31,144 bases of DNA, from positions 1-31,144 of IMG/VR virus record IMGVR_UViG_3300047557_000342. One strand, 5' to 3'. Both the position numbers and the translations under genes were made by a program. Of this stretch, positions 7,953 to 26,504 are shown one piece after another. This stretch comes from a virus. Each line of letters begins with the position of its first letter. Within the stretch, counting starts at the first letter, position 1. Under the pieces are notes generated by a model that did no database searches, was not told where the DNA came from, and saw only the letters and a program-made list of their open reading frames with translations.

Positions 7953-8626
7953 CAGCAGCAATAGCCACCAGCGCCGTCGTAGGCGCATACAGCGCTAAAA
8001 AGGGCGCGTCGGCACAGAAACAAGCCGCCGACCAGTCCGCTGAAGTTCAGCGCGAGATATTCCAGAAACAAACGGAACTGGCAGAGCCATTTCGTCAGGC
8101 TGGCATTACCTCGCAGAACGAACTGATGCGGCTGCTTGGAATTGGCGGCGATCAGACTGCGGCGGATTACGGCATGTTGACTCGTGGTTTTGGCGAGCGC
8201 GACATGCAGATGGACCCTGGTTACGGCTTCCGTTTGCGCGAAGGCGAAAAAGCCCTTGAGCGTATGCAGTCTGCTCGTGGCAACTTGCTATCAGGCGGCG
8301 CGATTAAGGCTGGTCAGCGCTTCGGCCAAGACTTGGCTTCGCAAGAGTACATGAACGCCTTTAATCGAGCGCAGGCGCAGTTAGGCACGCGCCTTGGTGC
8401 GTTAGGCAGTTTGTATGGCGCTGGTCAGGCGGCCACCCAACAGGTTTCTTCGCAAGCCGGTCAGTACGGTGAAAACGTAGGCAACTTGTTGATGGCTGGC
8501 GGCGCTGCTCGTGCTTCGGGATATGCGGGTATGGCTAACGCCCTTAACCAAGCGCTTGGTCAGTATGTTAACTACCGTCAGGGGCAGGATTACCTGAATC
8601 GCCGATACCCAACAGGGGAGGTTTGA
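7940..8626 (+). CDS. DNA ejection (internal virion) protein 1, gp7-like
   Basis: 228 residues. The N-terminus is a small hydrophobic Ala-rich helix (residues 1-20, MSAIAAAIATSAVVGAYSAK), followed by a Gln/Glu-rich helical segment and a motif DPGYGFRLREGEKALERMQS (about 92-111) that is widespread in short-tailed phage DNA-transfer proteins. The rest is Ala, Gly and Gln-rich and helical. In P22 three ejection proteins (gp7, gp20, gp16) leave the capsid ahead of the DNA to build a conduit through the cell envelope; here three consecutive genes follow the same plan. AGGAG at about 7930-7934 precedes the ATG. The gene overlaps the end of the SET gene by 13 nt. Confidence 0.78.
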   Translation: MSAIAAAIATSAVVGAYSAKKGASAQKQAADQSAEVQREIFQKQTELAEPFRQAGITSQNELMRLLGIGGDQTAADYGMLTRGFGERDMQMDPGYGFRLREGEKALERMQSARGNLLSGGAIKAGQRFGQDLASQEYMNAFNRAQAQLGTRLGALGSLYGAGQAATQQVSSQAGQYGENVGNLLMAGGAARASGYAGMANALNQALGQYVNYRQGQDYLNRRYPTGEV

Positions 8627-18798: not shown

Positions 18799-18882
18799 AT
18801 GCCCGATCAGACTACATGGCGGGCGAGGGGTTTGCAATGGACATATTTGACGAGATTCGGGAACGCGATATCAGCAAACTGA
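18799..18882 (+). CDS. 27-residue putative leader peptide
   Basis: A short reading frame (MPDQTTWRARGLQWTYLTRF, 27 residues in all) starts at an ATG preceded by AGGAG (18786-18790) and the ACTAAC sequence seen before other genes of this phage. It overlaps the start of the helicase gene in another frame. The start signal is better than that of the helicase, so it may be a leader that sets helicase expression. It could also be a remnant of a lost gene. Translation is not proven. Confidence 0.4.
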   Translation: MPDQTTWRARGLQWTYLTRFGNAISAN

Positions 18883-20165
18883 CGCCCGCACAGTGGTTTG
18901 GCCGCTTTGCGTACGTGAGAAGCGAGGACAGTTACTTTGACATGGTGGAGCGCCGCGAACTGTCGCGCCAGTCGTTCAATGCCATGTACCGGCACGTTTC
19001 GTGCGCCTCGATACATAACAAGCGCCGCATCGAAGCCTCTATCGCGTTCGACGAGAGCCGCGCTGACATGGGCGGCCATGCCTTAGAGGGTATTACCTTT
19101 GCCGCCGGAGAAGCCGCCCTCGTAGGCCGTGCGGGGCTGGTATACGGCAACCGATGGAGGGACGCTAGGCCGAAGGCCGTACCCGCTGACGTATCGCCGT
19201 GGCTGAACCATGCCGAGCGGATGATTCCCGATCCCATGGAACGGAACCATGTCCTCGATGTGATGGCGTACAAGCGGCAGAACCCGAACCGCAAGATAAA
19301 CCACGCGGTGCTGCACGGGGGCTTACCTGGGTCTGGTAAAGACACGCTCTGGACGCCCTTCCTGTACGCCATAGGCGGCAATTTGAACAGCAACGTCGCC
19401 ATCGTGCGCTCGGACGAATTACAAACCCAATGGGGCTACGCGCTTGAATCCGAGGTCGTCGTCATCAACGAACTGCGGCAAGCGGGTAAAGACCCGAGAG
19501 CGTTGGAGAACAACCTCAAGCCGTTAATCGCCGCCCCGCCCGAACTGCTGCAAGTGAACCGCAAGGGCTTGCACCCTTACTATGCGCTAAACCGTCTGTT
19601 TGTTTTGGCGTTTAGCAATGAGCGTGACGCTATTGCCTTACCCGCTGACGACCGTCGATGGTTTGTCCTCTGGTCGCACGCCCCACGGATGCGGGACGAT
19701 GAGTCAGCGAGCCTGTGGCGATGGTATGCCGATGGTGGCCTTGATGCCGTGTGCGCGTACCTCGACGCCCGAGACGTTAGCGCGTTCAATCCTGGAGCCG
19801 CCCCACCGATGACCGATGCAAAGGCCATCCTGCTACAGACTGGCATGAACCCGACCGAAGCCGCACTCGCCGAGATGATTGCAGCGCGTCAGGGCGTGTT
19901 CCGGCACGGCTTTATCACTAGCCCGTTTCACAAGTTGGTGAACGACTTACAAAGCGCGCTTGGAGATCGCTATAGGGTTAATCAAGCCGCGCTGAATATC
20001 GCGCTAAAGGATGCGGGATGGACAGACCGAGGGCGCATCTACTCAAAGGAACACGTTACCAAGAAACACGTATTCACCGCCCCCGAACACTCGCACCTTT
20101 CCAATTCGGAAGTGCGGCGCATGGTCGAAACCGCTGCGCCGCCCCCCTTGTCAGTCGTCAAATAG
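18837..20165 (+). CDS. D5/superfamily-3-like replication helicase (primase-helicase C-terminal type)
   Basis: 442 residues from ATG 18837, chosen over ATG 18816 because GAGGGG (18825-18830) is 6 nt before it. A P-loop ATPase core is clear: Walker A GLPGSGKDT (162-170), Walker B VVVINE (207-212), sensor-like FSN (259-261) and arginine finger ADDRRWFVLW (270-279). This arrangement matches DUF5906/D5-type helicases that unwind phage origins. A typical archaeo-eukaryotic or DnaG-type primase domain is not seen in the first 150 residues, so priming may come from the host. It is the only replication enzyme visible and is the likely partner of the iteron region. Confidence 0.83.
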   Translation: MDIFDEIRERDISKLTPAQWFGRFAYVRSEDSYFDMVERRELSRQSFNAMYRHVSCASIHNKRRIEASIAFDESRADMGGHALEGITFAAGEAALVGRAGLVYGNRWRDARPKAVPADVSPWLNHAERMIPDPMERNHVLDVMAYKRQNPNRKINHAVLHGGLPGSGKDTLWTPFLYAIGGNLNSNVAIVRSDELQTQWGYALESEVVVINELRQAGKDPRALENNLKPLIAAPPELLQVNRKGLHPYYALNRLFVLAFSNERDAIALPADDRRWFVLWSHAPRMRDDESASLWRWYADGGLDAVCAYLDARDVSAFNPGAAPPMTDAKAILLQTGMNPTEAALAEMIAARQGVFRHGFITSPFHKLVNDLQSALGDRYRVNQAALNIALKDAGWTDRGRIYSKEHVTKKHVFTAPEHSHLSNSEVRRMVETAAPPPLSVVK

Positions 20166-22017: not shown

Positions 22018-22173
22018 TCACGGCGTTTCGACCTCATGCGAGTCAATGTCGGATTGTTCAATTTCGGTTAAGGCTTCGTGAACGGCTAGGAGCGAGACTC
22101 CGAGGGAGTCTGCAATCTCCTGCTCTTTCATTCCGTCCACAAAATACATTTCGTACACGTCATCCAAAATCAT
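22018..22173 (-). CDS. 51-residue sigma-region-4-like HTH protein
   Basis: MILDDVYEMYFVDGMKEQEI then ADSLGVSLLAVHEALTEIEQ: a short HTH that resembles sigma-70 region 4 or a small regulator. ATG 22173 is chosen because the AGGAGACTAACC leader stands right before it; a longer frame upstream would use a weaker start and overlap another gene. It ends with an acidic tail (SDIDSHEVETP). It could adjust transcription of the operon or modify host RNA polymerase, but that is speculation. Confidence 0.68.
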   Translation of the reverse strand: MILDDVYEMYFVDGMKEQEIADSLGVSLLAVHEALTEIEQSDIDSHEVETP

Positions 22174-22190
22174 GGTTAGTCTCCTGTAAA

Positions 22191-22672: not shown

Positions 22673-22917
22673 TAGCGAATCTCCGGCAGGAAAGCAGGCG
22701 ACGAGATCAGGCGAGACGACGGGAGCACGAGATCACGCGCAAACGTCTCGGCAGATTCCAGCGATGAGAACCAACGGACGGTAACGACTGACTCGGATTC
22801 AAGATCAGTCAAAAACACCTTATAACGACGATCCGCATTAGCGCGGAAAGGTGCAGAGACGTAGAACACCTCGGCAGTCATCTGTGTTTCGTGGTTAGTG
22901 AATTCTGCTACGCACAT
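22672..22917 (-). CDS. First gene of the leftward early operon, unknown
   Basis: 81 residues from ATG 22917 (MCVAEFTNHETQMTAEVFYV). GGAGCAACTAACC stands before this ATG, whereas the upstream TTG at 22947 belongs to the promoter region and would need translation of the leader. The protein is a mixed alpha/beta fold with KVFLTDLESESVVTVRWFSS in the middle. Function is unknown. As the first gene behind the strong leftward promoter it is likely made early and in quantity. Confidence 0.65.
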   Translation of the reverse strand: MCVAEFTNHETQMTAEVFYVSAPFRANADRRYKVFLTDLESESVVTVRWFSSLESAETFARDLVLPSSRLISSPAFLPEIR

Positions 22918-22954
22918 GGTTAGTTGCTCCAGGTAGTTATGTGTCAACGATTCC

Positions 22955-22984
22955 TTTATACCCTAGGGCGTTTCATAGTGTCAA
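22955..22984 (-). promoter_or_regulatory. Strong leftward early promoter with GTTGACAC motif
   Basis: Minus-strand TTGACA (22979-22984), an 18-nt spacer and TATAAA (22955-22960) give a sigma-70-type promoter for the small-gene operon; transcription would begin around 22948 and leave a 30-nt leader. The -35 is embedded in TGTTGACACTATG, which resembles the left half of the operator at 15347-15366; a second GTTGACAC lies downstream in the leader. Confidence 0.72.
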
Positions 22985-23038
22985 CAAATAATTTACAGAT
23001 GATACCAACCCCTGACGCTGTGCAATTCTGGTGGGTAT

Positions 23039-23238
23039 GTTAGGCAGAAGTTAGGCGACGTTAGGCAGGGTTAGGCAAGTCAAAATAGGGATTTTGTAAA
23101 GGAAAAGAGAAAAGAGAGACGAAACTATCCAGGTTAGGCGAGATCGAGCCGTCTAGGTAGTCACCAAGTTAGGCGAAAGTAGGTAAGTAAAAAAAGACTG
23201 AAAAGTAAGGGGAAAAGCAAAAGGTATGCGAGTTAGGC
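23039..23238 (+). repeat. GTTAGGC iteron array, candidate replication origin
   Basis: Seven direct copies of GTTAGGC start at 23039, 23050, 23060, 23070, 23133, 23168 and 23232. The first four are spaced 11, 10 and 10 bp, so they lie on one face of the helix, as protein-binding iterons do. Purine-rich stretches separate the others. No gene lies in the region. An AT-rich block follows about 300 bp to the right. Iterons with an AT-rich unwinding region are the usual form of a phage or plasmid origin. Which protein binds is not visible; the helicase at 18837-20165 is a candidate partner. Confidence 0.6.
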
Positions 23239-23519
23239 TATGTCTCTTACTGCCGATTCTTTCATCAAATAGGAAAAGGAATTGAAAGTAGATCGCCTAA
23301 ATAGCATACCGCTCCCCTTTGCTAACCTTTTCCCCTCTCCCTGTTGCATAAAAACCACACGTATATACCTGTCGTATATACGCCACACTGTTGCGCCTAC
23401 GCTACATTGCGTAAACAATTCTCGTTCACATAACTACATAAGAATCGTTTGCATCCAGGCTTGTGGTACACGCACAACATTGTGTTGCGGTAAAACAACA
23501 GGGGGGGGTAGGGCCAGAG

Positions 23520-23533
23520 CGTGACCGGTCACG
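23520..23533. promoter_or_regulatory. 14-bp perfect palindrome CGTGACCGGTCACG
   Basis: A fully symmetric 14-bp site in non-coding DNA near the origin candidate, of the size bound by a dimeric regulator. The protein that binds is not known. Confidence 0.5.
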
Positions 23534-23548
23534 ATTACGAAGCGTTCA

Positions 23549-23573
23549 CAAAAACTTTTTATTTTTTTTATTT
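23549..23573. other. AT-rich block, possible DNA unwinding element
   Basis: A 25-nt stretch with almost only A and T (AAAAAC, T5, A, T8, ATTT order) follows the palindrome by about 15 nt. No GC stem precedes it, so it is not a terminator. In an origin it would be the site of strand opening. Confidence 0.45.
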
Positions 23574-23770
23574 ACCCCACTTCCTAATAAACGATTCCTT
23601 GATATCCTTTACTTGCAACGTCTGACCAGATGCGCTGGTAGCGACCGAGAGGTAACTGAAGGAAGGACTCCACCATCTAAGGCACTAAACGTTTAACGCT
23701 TCCGCCTCGGCACACAGGCTCCACGGTAGTTGGAGATCGCGGCCTCCCGATGGGACAATCCCATACGTTG

Positions 23771-23800
23771 TTGTTATCTCGCCAAACCTTCTGTTACAGT
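23771..23800 (+). promoter_or_regulatory. Rightward promoter before the packaging operon, leaderless type
   Basis: TTGTTA (23771-23776), an 18-nt spacer and TACAGT (23795-23800). The -10 box stands 6 nt (TCCCGC) before ATG 23807, so transcription would start at the ATG. The layout is nearly the same as that of the Cro-like gene (TACAGT-GCGCCC-ATG). Confidence 0.5.
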
Positions 23801-23806
23801 TCCCGC

Positions 23807-24010
23807 ATGGCACTAAAGATGACGGAAGAGGAGTGGTCGCAGTTTGCTGCCACGGCTTTGGTATGCCGCTCCTGCTTCTGGTCTGCCGAAGTAACCCGTC
23901 CGCAAAACAAGATTTGGTGCGCTCATCGTGTCGTCCACGGTTGGGTGACGGATAAGCCTCGATGCGACGGTCTGGCCTTTAAGTACGAGGACAAACGTGG
24001 AGACGTTTAG
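23807..24010 (+). CDS. Small Cys-rich protein, possible zinc-binding
   Basis: 67 residues (MALKMTEEEWSQFAATALVC). Four Cys (VCRSCFW, IWCAHR, PRCDG) in a C-x2-C...C...C order, plus two His (AHRVVHG), suggest a zinc site. No Shine-Dalgarno precedes ATG 23807; instead TACAGT is 6 nt upstream. It overlaps the TerS GTG start by 14 nt. It might regulate late genes or help terminase; the function is unknown. Confidence 0.62.
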   Translation: MALKMTEEEWSQFAATALVCRSCFWSAEVTRPQNKIWCAHRVVHGWVTDKPRCDGLAFKYEDKRGDV

Positions 24011-24545
24011 GTCGATCCCTTTTAAGCCTCGGGAACTCAAAGCCTCTCAGGAGGTTTTAGATAAGATTTACGAGGCTGCCAAACTTGGGCTGAAGGGTGA
24101 TGCCCTAGCCTTTGCTGCGGACATGCTGCCAACCGAGTATCGTAGGCTCTGCCAAATGGATGGGGCGGCTGCTATCGCGGAGGCAAAGGGTCGTGCTGAC
24201 AGTGAATTTGAGGCGGCAAACCAGTTGCGCGTGGCGGCTCTTGGTGGCGATAGCAAGGCAGCACTTGCTCTCTTGCAGCACGTGCATGGGTGGGTCGCTA
24301 AGACCCAGGTCCAAGTCGATGTTAAATCGCAGATCAGTATCATCGCGGCACTGCAAGAGGCGGAATCCCGCGTTATTCAGGGCAGAGTGGTGCAGGATAT
24401 TCCGGCTGCACTAGATGGTACAATTGACGAAGCCCCGAACCGTTCCAGCGGATCGAGGCTTCTGACCAACCAACCTTCGAGAGAGGCTGATTATGGCTAC
24501 GAAGATTCTAACGCAAGAACGCCTGAGAGAGTTGCTGCACTATGA
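23997..24545 (+). CDS. terS: Terminase small subunit-like protein
   Basis: 182 residues with a GTG start; GAGG (23987-23990) is 6 nt upstream. Residues about 15-55 (KASQEVLDKIYEAAKLGLKG then DALAFAADMLPTEYRRLCQM) form a HTH-like DNA-binding segment, followed by helical oligomerisation regions (about 60-130). The tail is disordered and overlaps the HNH gene by 53 nt in another frame. TerS binds the pac site and loads DNA on TerL. The call depends on helical pattern and on position two genes before TerL, as sequence similarity of TerS proteins is low. Confidence 0.7.
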   Translation: METFRSIPFKPRELKASQEVLDKIYEAAKLGLKGDALAFAADMLPTEYRRLCQMDGAAAIAEAKGRADSEFEAANQLRVAALGGDSKAALALLQHVHGWVAKTQVQVDVKSQISIIAALQEAESRVIQGRVVQDIPAALDGTIDEAPNRSSGSRLLTNQPSREADYGYEDSNARTPERVAAL

Positions 24546-24981
24546 TCCGGCAACCGGCGTCTTTACATGGCTCAAGCCATGCAGCAGGTTTAGCCAAGTG
24601 AAACCCGGCGACCCCGCAGGCTGCGTACACGCACGCGGTTATATCCACATAAAGGTAAATGGCGTTGGATATAAGGCACACCGACTGGCGTGGCTATATA
24701 CGCATGGTCGCTGGCCGGAACCGGCTATAGACCATATCAACCGAGTTAAAACCGACAACCGCCTTGCCAACCTGCGCGAAACCGATCAACTCGGCAACAT
24801 GCAGAACAAGGGGCAATACAGAAACAACACCAGCGGTTACGTTGGCGTTTCTAAACATTCATCCGGTAAGTGGGCAGCCCAGATTCAGGTCAACCGCAAA
24901 AACCGTCATTTAGGGCTTTTTGCCACACCTGAGTTAGCATCTGGTGCGTACCAAGCCGCTAAAAAGCAAATGGCCGCCTAA
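24493..24981 (+). CDS. HNH endonuclease with AP2-like DNA-binding domain
   Basis: 162 residues. The HNH core is YKAHRLAWLYTHGRWPEPAI then DHINRVKTDNRLANLRE (about residues 55-96): the first His in KAHRL, the DHIN with Asp-His-Asn, and the RLANLR Asn form the HNH metal site. Residues about 112-155 (TSGYVGVSKHSSGKWAAQIQ and onward) match an AP2-type beta-sheet domain that binds DNA. HNH/AP2 proteins are typical free-standing homing endonucleases. It sits between TerS and TerL, where HNH proteins can also assist packaging. Whether it is selfish or functional for packaging is open. Confidence 0.86.
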   Translation: MATKILTQERLRELLHYDPATGVFTWLKPCSRFSQVKPGDPAGCVHARGYIHIKVNGVGYKAHRLAWLYTHGRWPEPAIDHINRVKTDNRLANLRETDQLGNMQNKGQYRNNTSGYVGVSKHSSGKWAAQIQVNRKNRHLGLFATPELASGAYQAAKKQMAA

Positions 24982-26504
24982 TGCAAACGACGATTTATAC
25001 CGCTGACGAAGAAATGGCGCTGATGTCGCGCCTGTGGTCTAAAGACATTGCTAACAATCCTGAAGCCTTTGTCCGATTTGTCTTTCCTTGGGGAAAGAAA
25101 GGCACACCGCTAGAGAATCATCCCGGTCCTCGACGTTGGCAGCGAGACATCCTGCGGCAGATTAAAGAGCATATTGATGCCAATAACGGCCAAGTAGACT
25201 TTAAGGTTCTACGCATGGCCGTGGCGTCAGGTCGCGGTATCGGCAAATCGGCCTTAGTAAGTTGGCTTGTTATTTGGATGCTTTCTACCCGTATCGGCGG
25301 TAGCGTCATTGTTTCGGCCAACTCTGAGGCGCAGTTGCGTTCAATTACGTGGTCGGAAATCACCAAGTGGCTGGCGATGTCCATGAACAGCCATTGGTTT
25401 GAGATTTCGGCTACTCGCGTAACCCCGGCTAAATGGTTGTCCGAACTGGTAGAGCGTGACCTGCGAAAAGGTACGCGCTATTGGTCAATTGAAGGTCGGT
25501 TGTGGTCAGAAGAGAACCCAGACGCCTACGCGGGTCTGCACAACTCTGATGGCGTCATGCTGATATTTGACGAGAGTTCTGGTATTCCAGACAAGATTTG
25601 GGACGTTGCCCAAGGCTTCTTTACCGAAAACACGCCAAACCGTTTCTGGTTTGCGTTTAGCAACCCACGCCGAAACGAGGGCTATTTCTATGAGTGCTTC
25701 AACGCGAAAAGGAATTTCTGGGCGACGCAAAGCATCGACGCCCGGCAAGTCGAAGACACCGACAAAGCGGTCTACGAACAAATCATCGAAGAGTACGGCT
25801 CGGACTCCCCGCAAGCCCGAATCGAAGTGTATGGACAGTTCCCCGCCGATGGAGACGACCAGTTCATCTCTCCGAGCATGGTGGACGAAGCAGCGTCTCG
25901 CCCTAAGTACCAGGATGAAACTGCTCCGATTGTATTGGGCGTTGATCCGGCTCGAAGTGGTAATGACTCGACGGTCATTGTCGCGCGTCAAGGCCGCGAT
26001 GTCGTCGCGATTAAGCGTTATAAAGGCGAAGATACGATGGAGATCGTCGGGCGAGTAATCGACGCTATCGAAGAGTTCCGCCCTGCGCTCGTTGTCCTTG
26101 ACGAAGGCGGCCTCGGCTACGGCATCTTGGATCGCTTGAAAGAACAGCGATACAAGGTGCGTGGCGTTAACTTTGGTTGGAAGTCGTCAAAGCCTGCAAT
26201 GTGGCAGAACAAGCGTGCAGAGATGTGGGGTGATATGCGCCAATGGCTGCGTACCGCCTCGATCCCCAACGACCGGATGCTTAAATCCGACCTGTGCGGC
26301 CCGCAGTACAAGACCAATTCCTCGGGTGCTATAGCCCTAGAAGCCAAGAAAGACATGAAGGCTAGAGGCTTGGCCTCCCCTGACGCAGCAGATGCGTTGG
26401 CGGTTACTTTCGCGTACCCTGTTGCAAGTCGGGAGTCAAGAGTTAAAATCCAACGTAGGTTTTCAGGACGCGGCGAGATGCTCTCGTCGTGGATGGGTGC
26501 TTGA
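24981..26504 (+). CDS. terL: Terminase large subunit
   Basis: 507 residues. The ATPase has Walker A SGRGIGKS (83-90) and Walker B VMLIFDE (192-198) with the coupling SNP-like FSNPRR (226-231). The nuclease has GVDPARSGNDST (320-331; D322), LDEGGLG (373-379; D374) and SPDAADALAV near 465 with the last acidic residues. TerL translocates DNA into the procapsid through the portal and cuts it. The ATG overlaps the HNH stop by one base. Its nuclease motif order resembles the headful-packaging type, in line with circular permutation. Confidence 0.95.
   Translation: MQTTIYTADEEMALMSRLWSKDIANNPEAFVRFVFPWGKKGTPLENHPGPRRWQRDILRQIKEHIDANNGQVDFKVLRMAVASGRGIGKSALVSWLVIWMLSTRIGGSVIVSANSEAQLRSITWSEITKWLAMSMNSHWFEISATRVTPAKWLSELVERDLRKGTRYWSIEGRLWSEENPDAYAGLHNSDGVMLIFDESSGIPDKIWDVAQGFFTENTPNRFWFAFSNPRRNEGYFYECFNAKRNFWATQSIDARQVEDTDKAVYEQIIEEYGSDSPQARIEVYGQFPADGDDQFISPSMVDEAASRPKYQDETAPIVLGVDPARSGNDSTVIVARQGRDVVAIKRYKGEDTMEIVGRVIDAIEEFRPALVVLDEGGLGYGILDRLKEQRYKVRGVNFGWKSSKPAMWQNKRAEMWGDMRQWLRTASIPNDRMLKSDLCGPQYKTNSSGAIALEAKKDMKARGLASPDAADALAVTFAYPVASRESRVKIQRRFSGRGEMLSSWMGA

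Follow-up and report, generated by a model that had tools for sequence, protein, structure and literature searches.

Known and proposed helicase initiators and origins with iterons

P4 alpha is described as an SF3-type helicase that binds the repeats of its origin via a winged-helix domain and then unwinds the DNA, and that also carries a TOPRIM primase (PMC4234260). For SaPI Rep and SCCmec Cch2, the C-terminal domain is reported to recognise an origin of short iterons (PMC7581432). In the account of NrS-1, the Tail of the polymerase is named a novel fold and the origin, with its 8-nt recognition sequence, is merely guessed (PMC7102993), while lambda ori provides an example of iterons associated with an AT-rich region in a phage (PMC7466680). 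Here, we analysed a 31,144-nt IMG/VR virus record (hereafter the window) that contains an array of iterons and encodes an NrS-1-like SF3 helicase, and we compared both with their counterparts in related loci. Our search of the open-access literature found no published description of candidate origins of this kind.

An iteron array in the gap upstream of the terminase genes

The window is a tailed phage, whose gene content includes a P22-type portal, a TerL with an HK97-like family match, a RecE-like exonuclease, an Erf-like annealing protein, an SSB and the SF3 helicase. A preliminary description had reported seven GTTAGGC heptamers in 200 nt of non-coding DNA, the first four at helical spacing, and had read them as a candidate replication origin. 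The seven copies are indeed present, all on the plus strand (starts at 23039, 23050, 23060, 23070, 23133, 23168 and 23232), the first four forming a phased quartet (23039-23076) with spacings of 11, 10 and 10 bp and the others following at 63, 35 and 64 bp. They sit in a gap of ~860 nt between small minus-strand genes, ending at 22947, and a plus-strand gene starting at 23807, which is followed by the genes for TerS (23997-24545), an HNH endonuclease (24493-24981) and TerL (24981-26504). No DNA relatives of the gap were found among named phages, and genome_contigs gave no confirmed match to a prophage relative. The HNH endonuclease is also present between TerS and TerL in loci L011, L020 and L057, among others, and was not found there in, for example, L006, L007 and L060; because of this patchy occurrence among close relatives, it is likely a mobile insertion.

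The array exceeds what chance would produce. In 200 order-2 Markov simulations of the window, the maximum number of same-strand copies of a 7-mer per 200 nt was 4 in four runs, 3 in 189 and 2 in seven, compared with the 7 observed; when only the local 860 nt was simulated (order 1, 2000 versions), the maximum was 3. Over the whole window and both strands, GTTAGGC occurs 11 times where 3.8 copies are expected. An extra pair of copies 21 bp apart (8380 and 8401; 8380-8407) lies within a coding region, where it is possibly due to chance and conceivably a second initiator site.

The last iteron (23232-23238) is located within the left arm of an inverted repeat, referred to below as the core (23223-23310), whose arms (23223-23241 and 23292-23310) are 84% complementary and which contains the single minus-strand near-iteron, TTTAGGC at 23295. 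The purine-rich tracts mentioned in the preliminary description were also recovered: the plus strand between the iterons (23077-23232) is 73% purine, and the 150-nt segment starting at 23081 (73%) ranks first in purine content among 3100. The AT-rich block (23541-23580), a possible melting region, and the 14-bp palindrome (23520-23533) exist as well; their supposed tie to the iterons is contradicted by the recombinant locus L071, discussed below, in which both elements lie in a part of the gap that accompanies the terminase side rather than the iterons, leaving the block unlinked to iteron type. Inspection of GC skew, which had been suggested as a check, revealed no origin signal.

Imperfect palindromes of the form TGTTGCA..TGCAACA occur in two to four copies between 23342 and 23450; the window has degenerate versions and L060 and other loci have clearer ones, which accompany all iteron types and probably serve as operators for a different regulator. 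No DnaA box (TTATCCACA) occurs in the gap of the window, on which ground a DnaA-type origin was rejected for the window. Exact boxes do occur among the 75 related origin regions, in 8 of them (L034, L035, L039, L043, L016, L159, L190 and L191), where their sequence would be fitting for an origin role.

A separate finding concerns the segment 23615-23771 (plus strand), to the right of the candidate origin and upstream of the terminase operon, which by covariation is a structured RNA of ~145-195 nt, strongly covarying, with further copies in, for example, L077 (8837-8979) and L021 (15017-15185). In a 26-pair structure drawn by eye from the alignment of 53 distinct sequences, all 1378 of 1378 cells are standard pairs and 15 of the 26 pairs change on both sides, compared with 24-40% pairing in slid controls. 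No Rfam match was obtained at E up to 1 for positions 22800-24100, nor at the gathering score in L077, L104 and L131. A covariance model of the RNA matched 3 of the 39 sources searched, all three from its training set, and was not seen in the 36 others; nor was the RNA seen in the L191 clade, MW202483 or OR003940. The RNA accompanies all iteron types of the terminase group to which the window belongs, and could be a packaging RNA, a leader or an antiterminator.

The array in close relatives

Five relatives (L006, L007, L008, L009 and L060) carry repeats at the common offsets 0, 11, 21, 31, 94, 129, 139, 193 and 246, with 235 of 245 iteron cells and 613 of 755 spacer cells identical to the window. 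The fifth (23133-23139) and sixth (23168-23174) iterons are unchanged in all five, and the seventh reads GTTAGGT in two of them. The preliminary description had made its reading depend on conservation of the phasing in relatives, and this expectation was borne out in part: the offsets, including those of the quartet, are retained in the five genomes above and in L011, whose word is now GKTAGAC, whereas in seven close relatives (L004, L010, L012, L020, L026, L057 and L074) the left block, and with it the phased quartet, is missing. Since these seven do without the left block, the phased quartet is not indispensable; and since they retain the inverted-repeat core (~23223-23310), together with two to three TAGGC on the plus strand, the core looks like the basic element and the quartet like an extension of it.

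The helicase and its C-terminal domain

The proposed initiator is a 449-amino-acid protein (18816-20165, plus strand) with a Walker A motif near residue 169. Its sole Pfam match is DUF5906 (PF19263, E 9.2e-10, above the cut-off), its profile matches PDB 6k9c with an E of 5.4e-20, and these matches, with a VIA Z of 24.3, place it among proteins with an SF3 (AAA+) helicase domain. The gene ends 2.9 kb before the array starts (20165 and 23039, respectively), with minus-strand genes in between. A longer version of the protein is found in the ~50% clade, where the helicase ORF has 781 amino acids (L191, 4528-6873) and includes an N-terminal extension that is missing from the window's protein.

AlphaFold2 modelled the whole helicase with a pLDDT of 82.8 and a pTM of 0.71 (35 sequences), and the C-terminal domain alone with a pLDDT of 87.2 (33 sequences). 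In both models, residues 346-421 (19851-20078) follow the order helix, strand, helix, helix, strand, wing, strand, and the domain is accordingly predicted to be a winged helix, which the covariation described below would make the reader of the iterons. The predicted wing (residues 409-416; 20040-20063) includes Y409, K411 and T415, which align with sites 405, 407 and 411 of L191 and fall between the last two strands. Winged-helix proteins make up most of the structural matches to the C-terminal model, which were weak (best Z 6.5), and Foldseek returned none with an E below 0.001. The origin-binding domain of P4 alpha is absent among the matches listed for this model, which excludes nothing.

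The repeat word changes with the helicase

At the same intergenic site, other lineages carry the words TGGGCA, TTAGTA, TAGACA, ACGTCA and GGGTCA. For TTAGGC, TTAGTA, TGGGCA and TAGACA, the word follows the clade of the helicase and not the terminase. L071 is 95% identical to the window in TerS, 85% in TerL and 88.7% in the right half of the gap, compared with 35% in the helicase C-terminus, and its repeats are TTAGTA, as in the clade of its helicase. Judged from these alignments, L071 is a natural recombinant, in which a window-like terminase side is joined to a helicase and repeats that belong to the TTAGTA clade.

Smaller changes are visible among closer relatives, for which identities were tabulated separately for the helicase core and C-terminus (L010, L079 and L009 excluded). 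L011, at 93% identity to the window in the core, 81% in the C-terminus and 96% in TerS, has six plus-strand TAGAC in the iteron positions of the window and no TAGGC. In L005 (core 97%, C-terminus 89%), the wing has changed too and TAGGC is gone from the plus strand, its replacement not being firmly assignable; its sister L026, which shares its N-terminal alleles, retains the common C-terminus and TTAGGC.

Two further genomes also have arrays at this site. The complete circular genome MW202483 contains at least 11 repeats of the TGTAAAC type at the equivalent place and encodes a divergent related helicase (54% to L191). OR003940 (L462, 33440-33960) has about nine GGGTCA upstream of TerS, at the equivalent site; tblastn at E 1e-5 gave no helicase match in it, and by eye the C-terminus of its primase-polymerase showed no resemblance to the window-type helicase. 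Arrays at this site are therefore more widespread than the helicase family of the window.

Association of repeat class with the helicase C-terminus

The pattern GTTAGGCN4GTTAGGC retrieved 109 stretches, and the helicase was present in 9 of the 108 loci scanned, compared with 0 of 119 for the reversed control pattern. Seven of the nine helicases were strong matches and two were weak, at 26-28% identity; among the seven strong loci, L233 repeats the contig of L008 and the other six form one clade. Statistical analysis was carried out in the ~50% clade (L191), originally reached via the DNA pattern alone, with 80 loci taken around its helicase. The clade comprises 84 loci in total, 76 with enough flank and 72 of these with a full-length helicase, the frameshifted L020 and the truncated L159, L211, L334 and L341 being left out of the 72-row table. 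Repeat classes were assigned from DNA only, using a panel picked after the k-mer lists had been viewed; 64 rows could be classed and 8 could not, and dropping 13 of the 64 as duplicates left 51 distinct classed rows.

Counting rows and pairs that include related sequences, we observed N405 with K407 in 19 of 19 rows of class A (ACGTCA), N405 in 0 of 36 rows of class B (TAGGC), H405 in 4 of 5 rows of class C (GGGTCA), G-K-S at 405/407/411 in the single row of class D, and N-K-N, as in class A, in 3 of 3 rows of class E (TTGTCA). Helicases alike at these three sites shared their class in 230 of 261 pairs, compared with 264 of 1014 unlike pairs. The other 31 of the 261 identical pairs differ in class, and AVT is found at the wing sites in three class-B rows and one class-C row; at the level of these alignments, the three wing residues alone do not fix the repeat class.

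When alignment columns were ranked by mutual information with repeat class in these 51 rows, the first 11 were all C-terminal, as were the top 18 by z-score, compared with 47 of the 103 variable columns overall, and the most class-informative sites sit in the predicted wing. The AUC for class was 0.70 for the helicase C-terminus, 0.54 for its core and 0.49 for both TerS and TerL; among 83 ORFs conserved in 25 or more of the 51 loci (overlapping antisense ORFs included), the top four by AUC were the helicase or an ORF antisense to its C-terminus. Kinship is partly controlled by five independent, well-supported A/B pairs, all five of which point the expected way (sign test p 0.0625). On the helicase-core tree of the 72 rows, repeat class has changed at least 19 times. 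Taken together, these results suggest, indirectly, that the iteron sequence is set by the C-terminal domain of the helicase.

Alternative explanations

In P1 pac and lambda cosB, short repeats lie close to terminase genes, and by this precedent the array, ~0.8 kb upstream of TerS (23997-24545) and TerL (24981-26504), would serve in packaging, as a pac or cosB-like site for the small terminase whose gene follows just downstream. The repeats, however, do not track TerS: L011, L012, L020, L026, L057 and L074 have switched or reduced arrays, yet their TerS is 96-97% identical to that of the window. Because L071 retains the terminase with different repeats, and because similarity in either terminase subunit is uninformative on class (AUC 0.49 each in the 51 distinct rows), this explanation was rejected as highly improbable and is strongly disfavoured. 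The location of the gap between divergent genes would suit an operator that controls transcription of both gene sets through a small HTH protein such as that encoded at 22018-22176, which weakly matches an HTH of the sigma-70 region 4 type (E 2.8e-5, 24.1 bits for a cut-off of 25.7); an initiator sitting on the iterons may additionally repress a nearby promoter. Small HTH proteins had been put forward as possible binders in the preliminary description, but the 22018-22176 protein was found in none of the five other array-bearing relatives examined (tblastn, E 1e-4), no non-helicase gene of the L191 clade tracks repeat class at the level of the helicase, and a sigma-70 scan gave no promoter at the threshold of the tool, so that we regard an operator as quite improbable.

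It is unlikely, too, that the helicase binds the array as an auxiliary element (an enhancer, a copy-control site or a second cluster), with the true start elsewhere. P4 has such a second element, crr, seven close relatives manage with few sites, and the further GTTAGGC pair at 8380/8401 would be another place of binding; against this, the array is the sole multi-copy one seen in the window, and the equivalent gap holds an array in each other lineage examined, the complete circular MW202483 included.

Proposed role of the array and the helicase

The comparative evidence favours both the candidate-origin reading of the preliminary description and its guess that the helicase is the binder, as the word covaries with the predicted winged helix at the helicase C-terminus and not with the terminase. 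Because it covaries with a few residues in what would be the DNA-gripping tip of the helicase, the GTTAGGC repeats are most likely the replication start site. We consider it very probable that the array and the inverted-repeat core (~23039-23310) constitute a replication origin with the SF3 helicase (18816-20165) as its initiator, a proposal that combines covariation between sequences with a modelled fold and from which we infer binding, melting and origin activity. The C-terminal winged helix would grip the iterons, and the helicase would load itself and multimerise at the array, by analogy with P4 alpha, SaPI Rep and Cch2; it would then melt the DNA, possibly with the AT-rich block as the melting zone, and forks would start.

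More tentatively, the wing may be a compact, swappable address reader, in which changes in three to five residues (405, 407, 410 and 411 in L191; within 409-415 in the window) would retarget the initiator, origin and wing being repeatedly rewritten together; we see this as an open possibility of nearly even standing. There are hints of a code in the aligned sequences, N-K going with ACGTCA or TTGTCA, G with TAGG, and H with GGG in two clades (4 of 5 rows in class C and 7 of the 7 rows shown in the TGGGCA clade). A possible driver of the word changes is escape from origin-directed nucleases or satellites, by analogy with the PLE iterons, where origin-directed nucleases drive iteron change in that other system (PMC8263062).

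What was a bare repeat array would thus be paired with its initiator in a family of uncultured tailed phages, while the NrS-1-like (DUF5906) helicases would gain a likely role for their C-terminal domain. Since word and wing appear to have switched jointly many times among close relatives, these relatives amount to a natural experiment in the retargeting of an initiator to new DNA, and the set may also supply pairs of origin and initiator that would be expected not to cross-react.

Comparison with known systems

The closest solved structure to the window's helicase is the C-terminal region of the NrS-1 polymerase (PDB 6k9c, 6k9e and 6lrb; VIA Z 24.3 over 356 residues, rmsd 7.6), although NrS-1, unlike the window's protein, is fused to a primase-polymerase. 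Another of the better structural matches is the SaPI5 primase-helicase (7om0, Z 18.4; 7ola, Z 18.1); whereas the origin of SaPI Rep and Cch2 lies directly downstream of the helicase gene, in the window 2.9 kb and a convergent gene cluster separate the array from that gene. With lambda ori, the locus shares the combination of iterons and an AT-rich region; in lambda the iterons are within the initiator gene, whereas here the array lies between genes and the helicase itself is presumed to act as initiator. P4 alpha differs in its fused primase, none being visible in the 449-amino-acid protein of the window, and no solved winged helix gave a strong structural match to the C-terminal domain of the latter. 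The likeness to P4 alpha resides in the combination of an SF3-type helicase, a predicted winged helix and origin repeats, to which the helicase of the window would bind.
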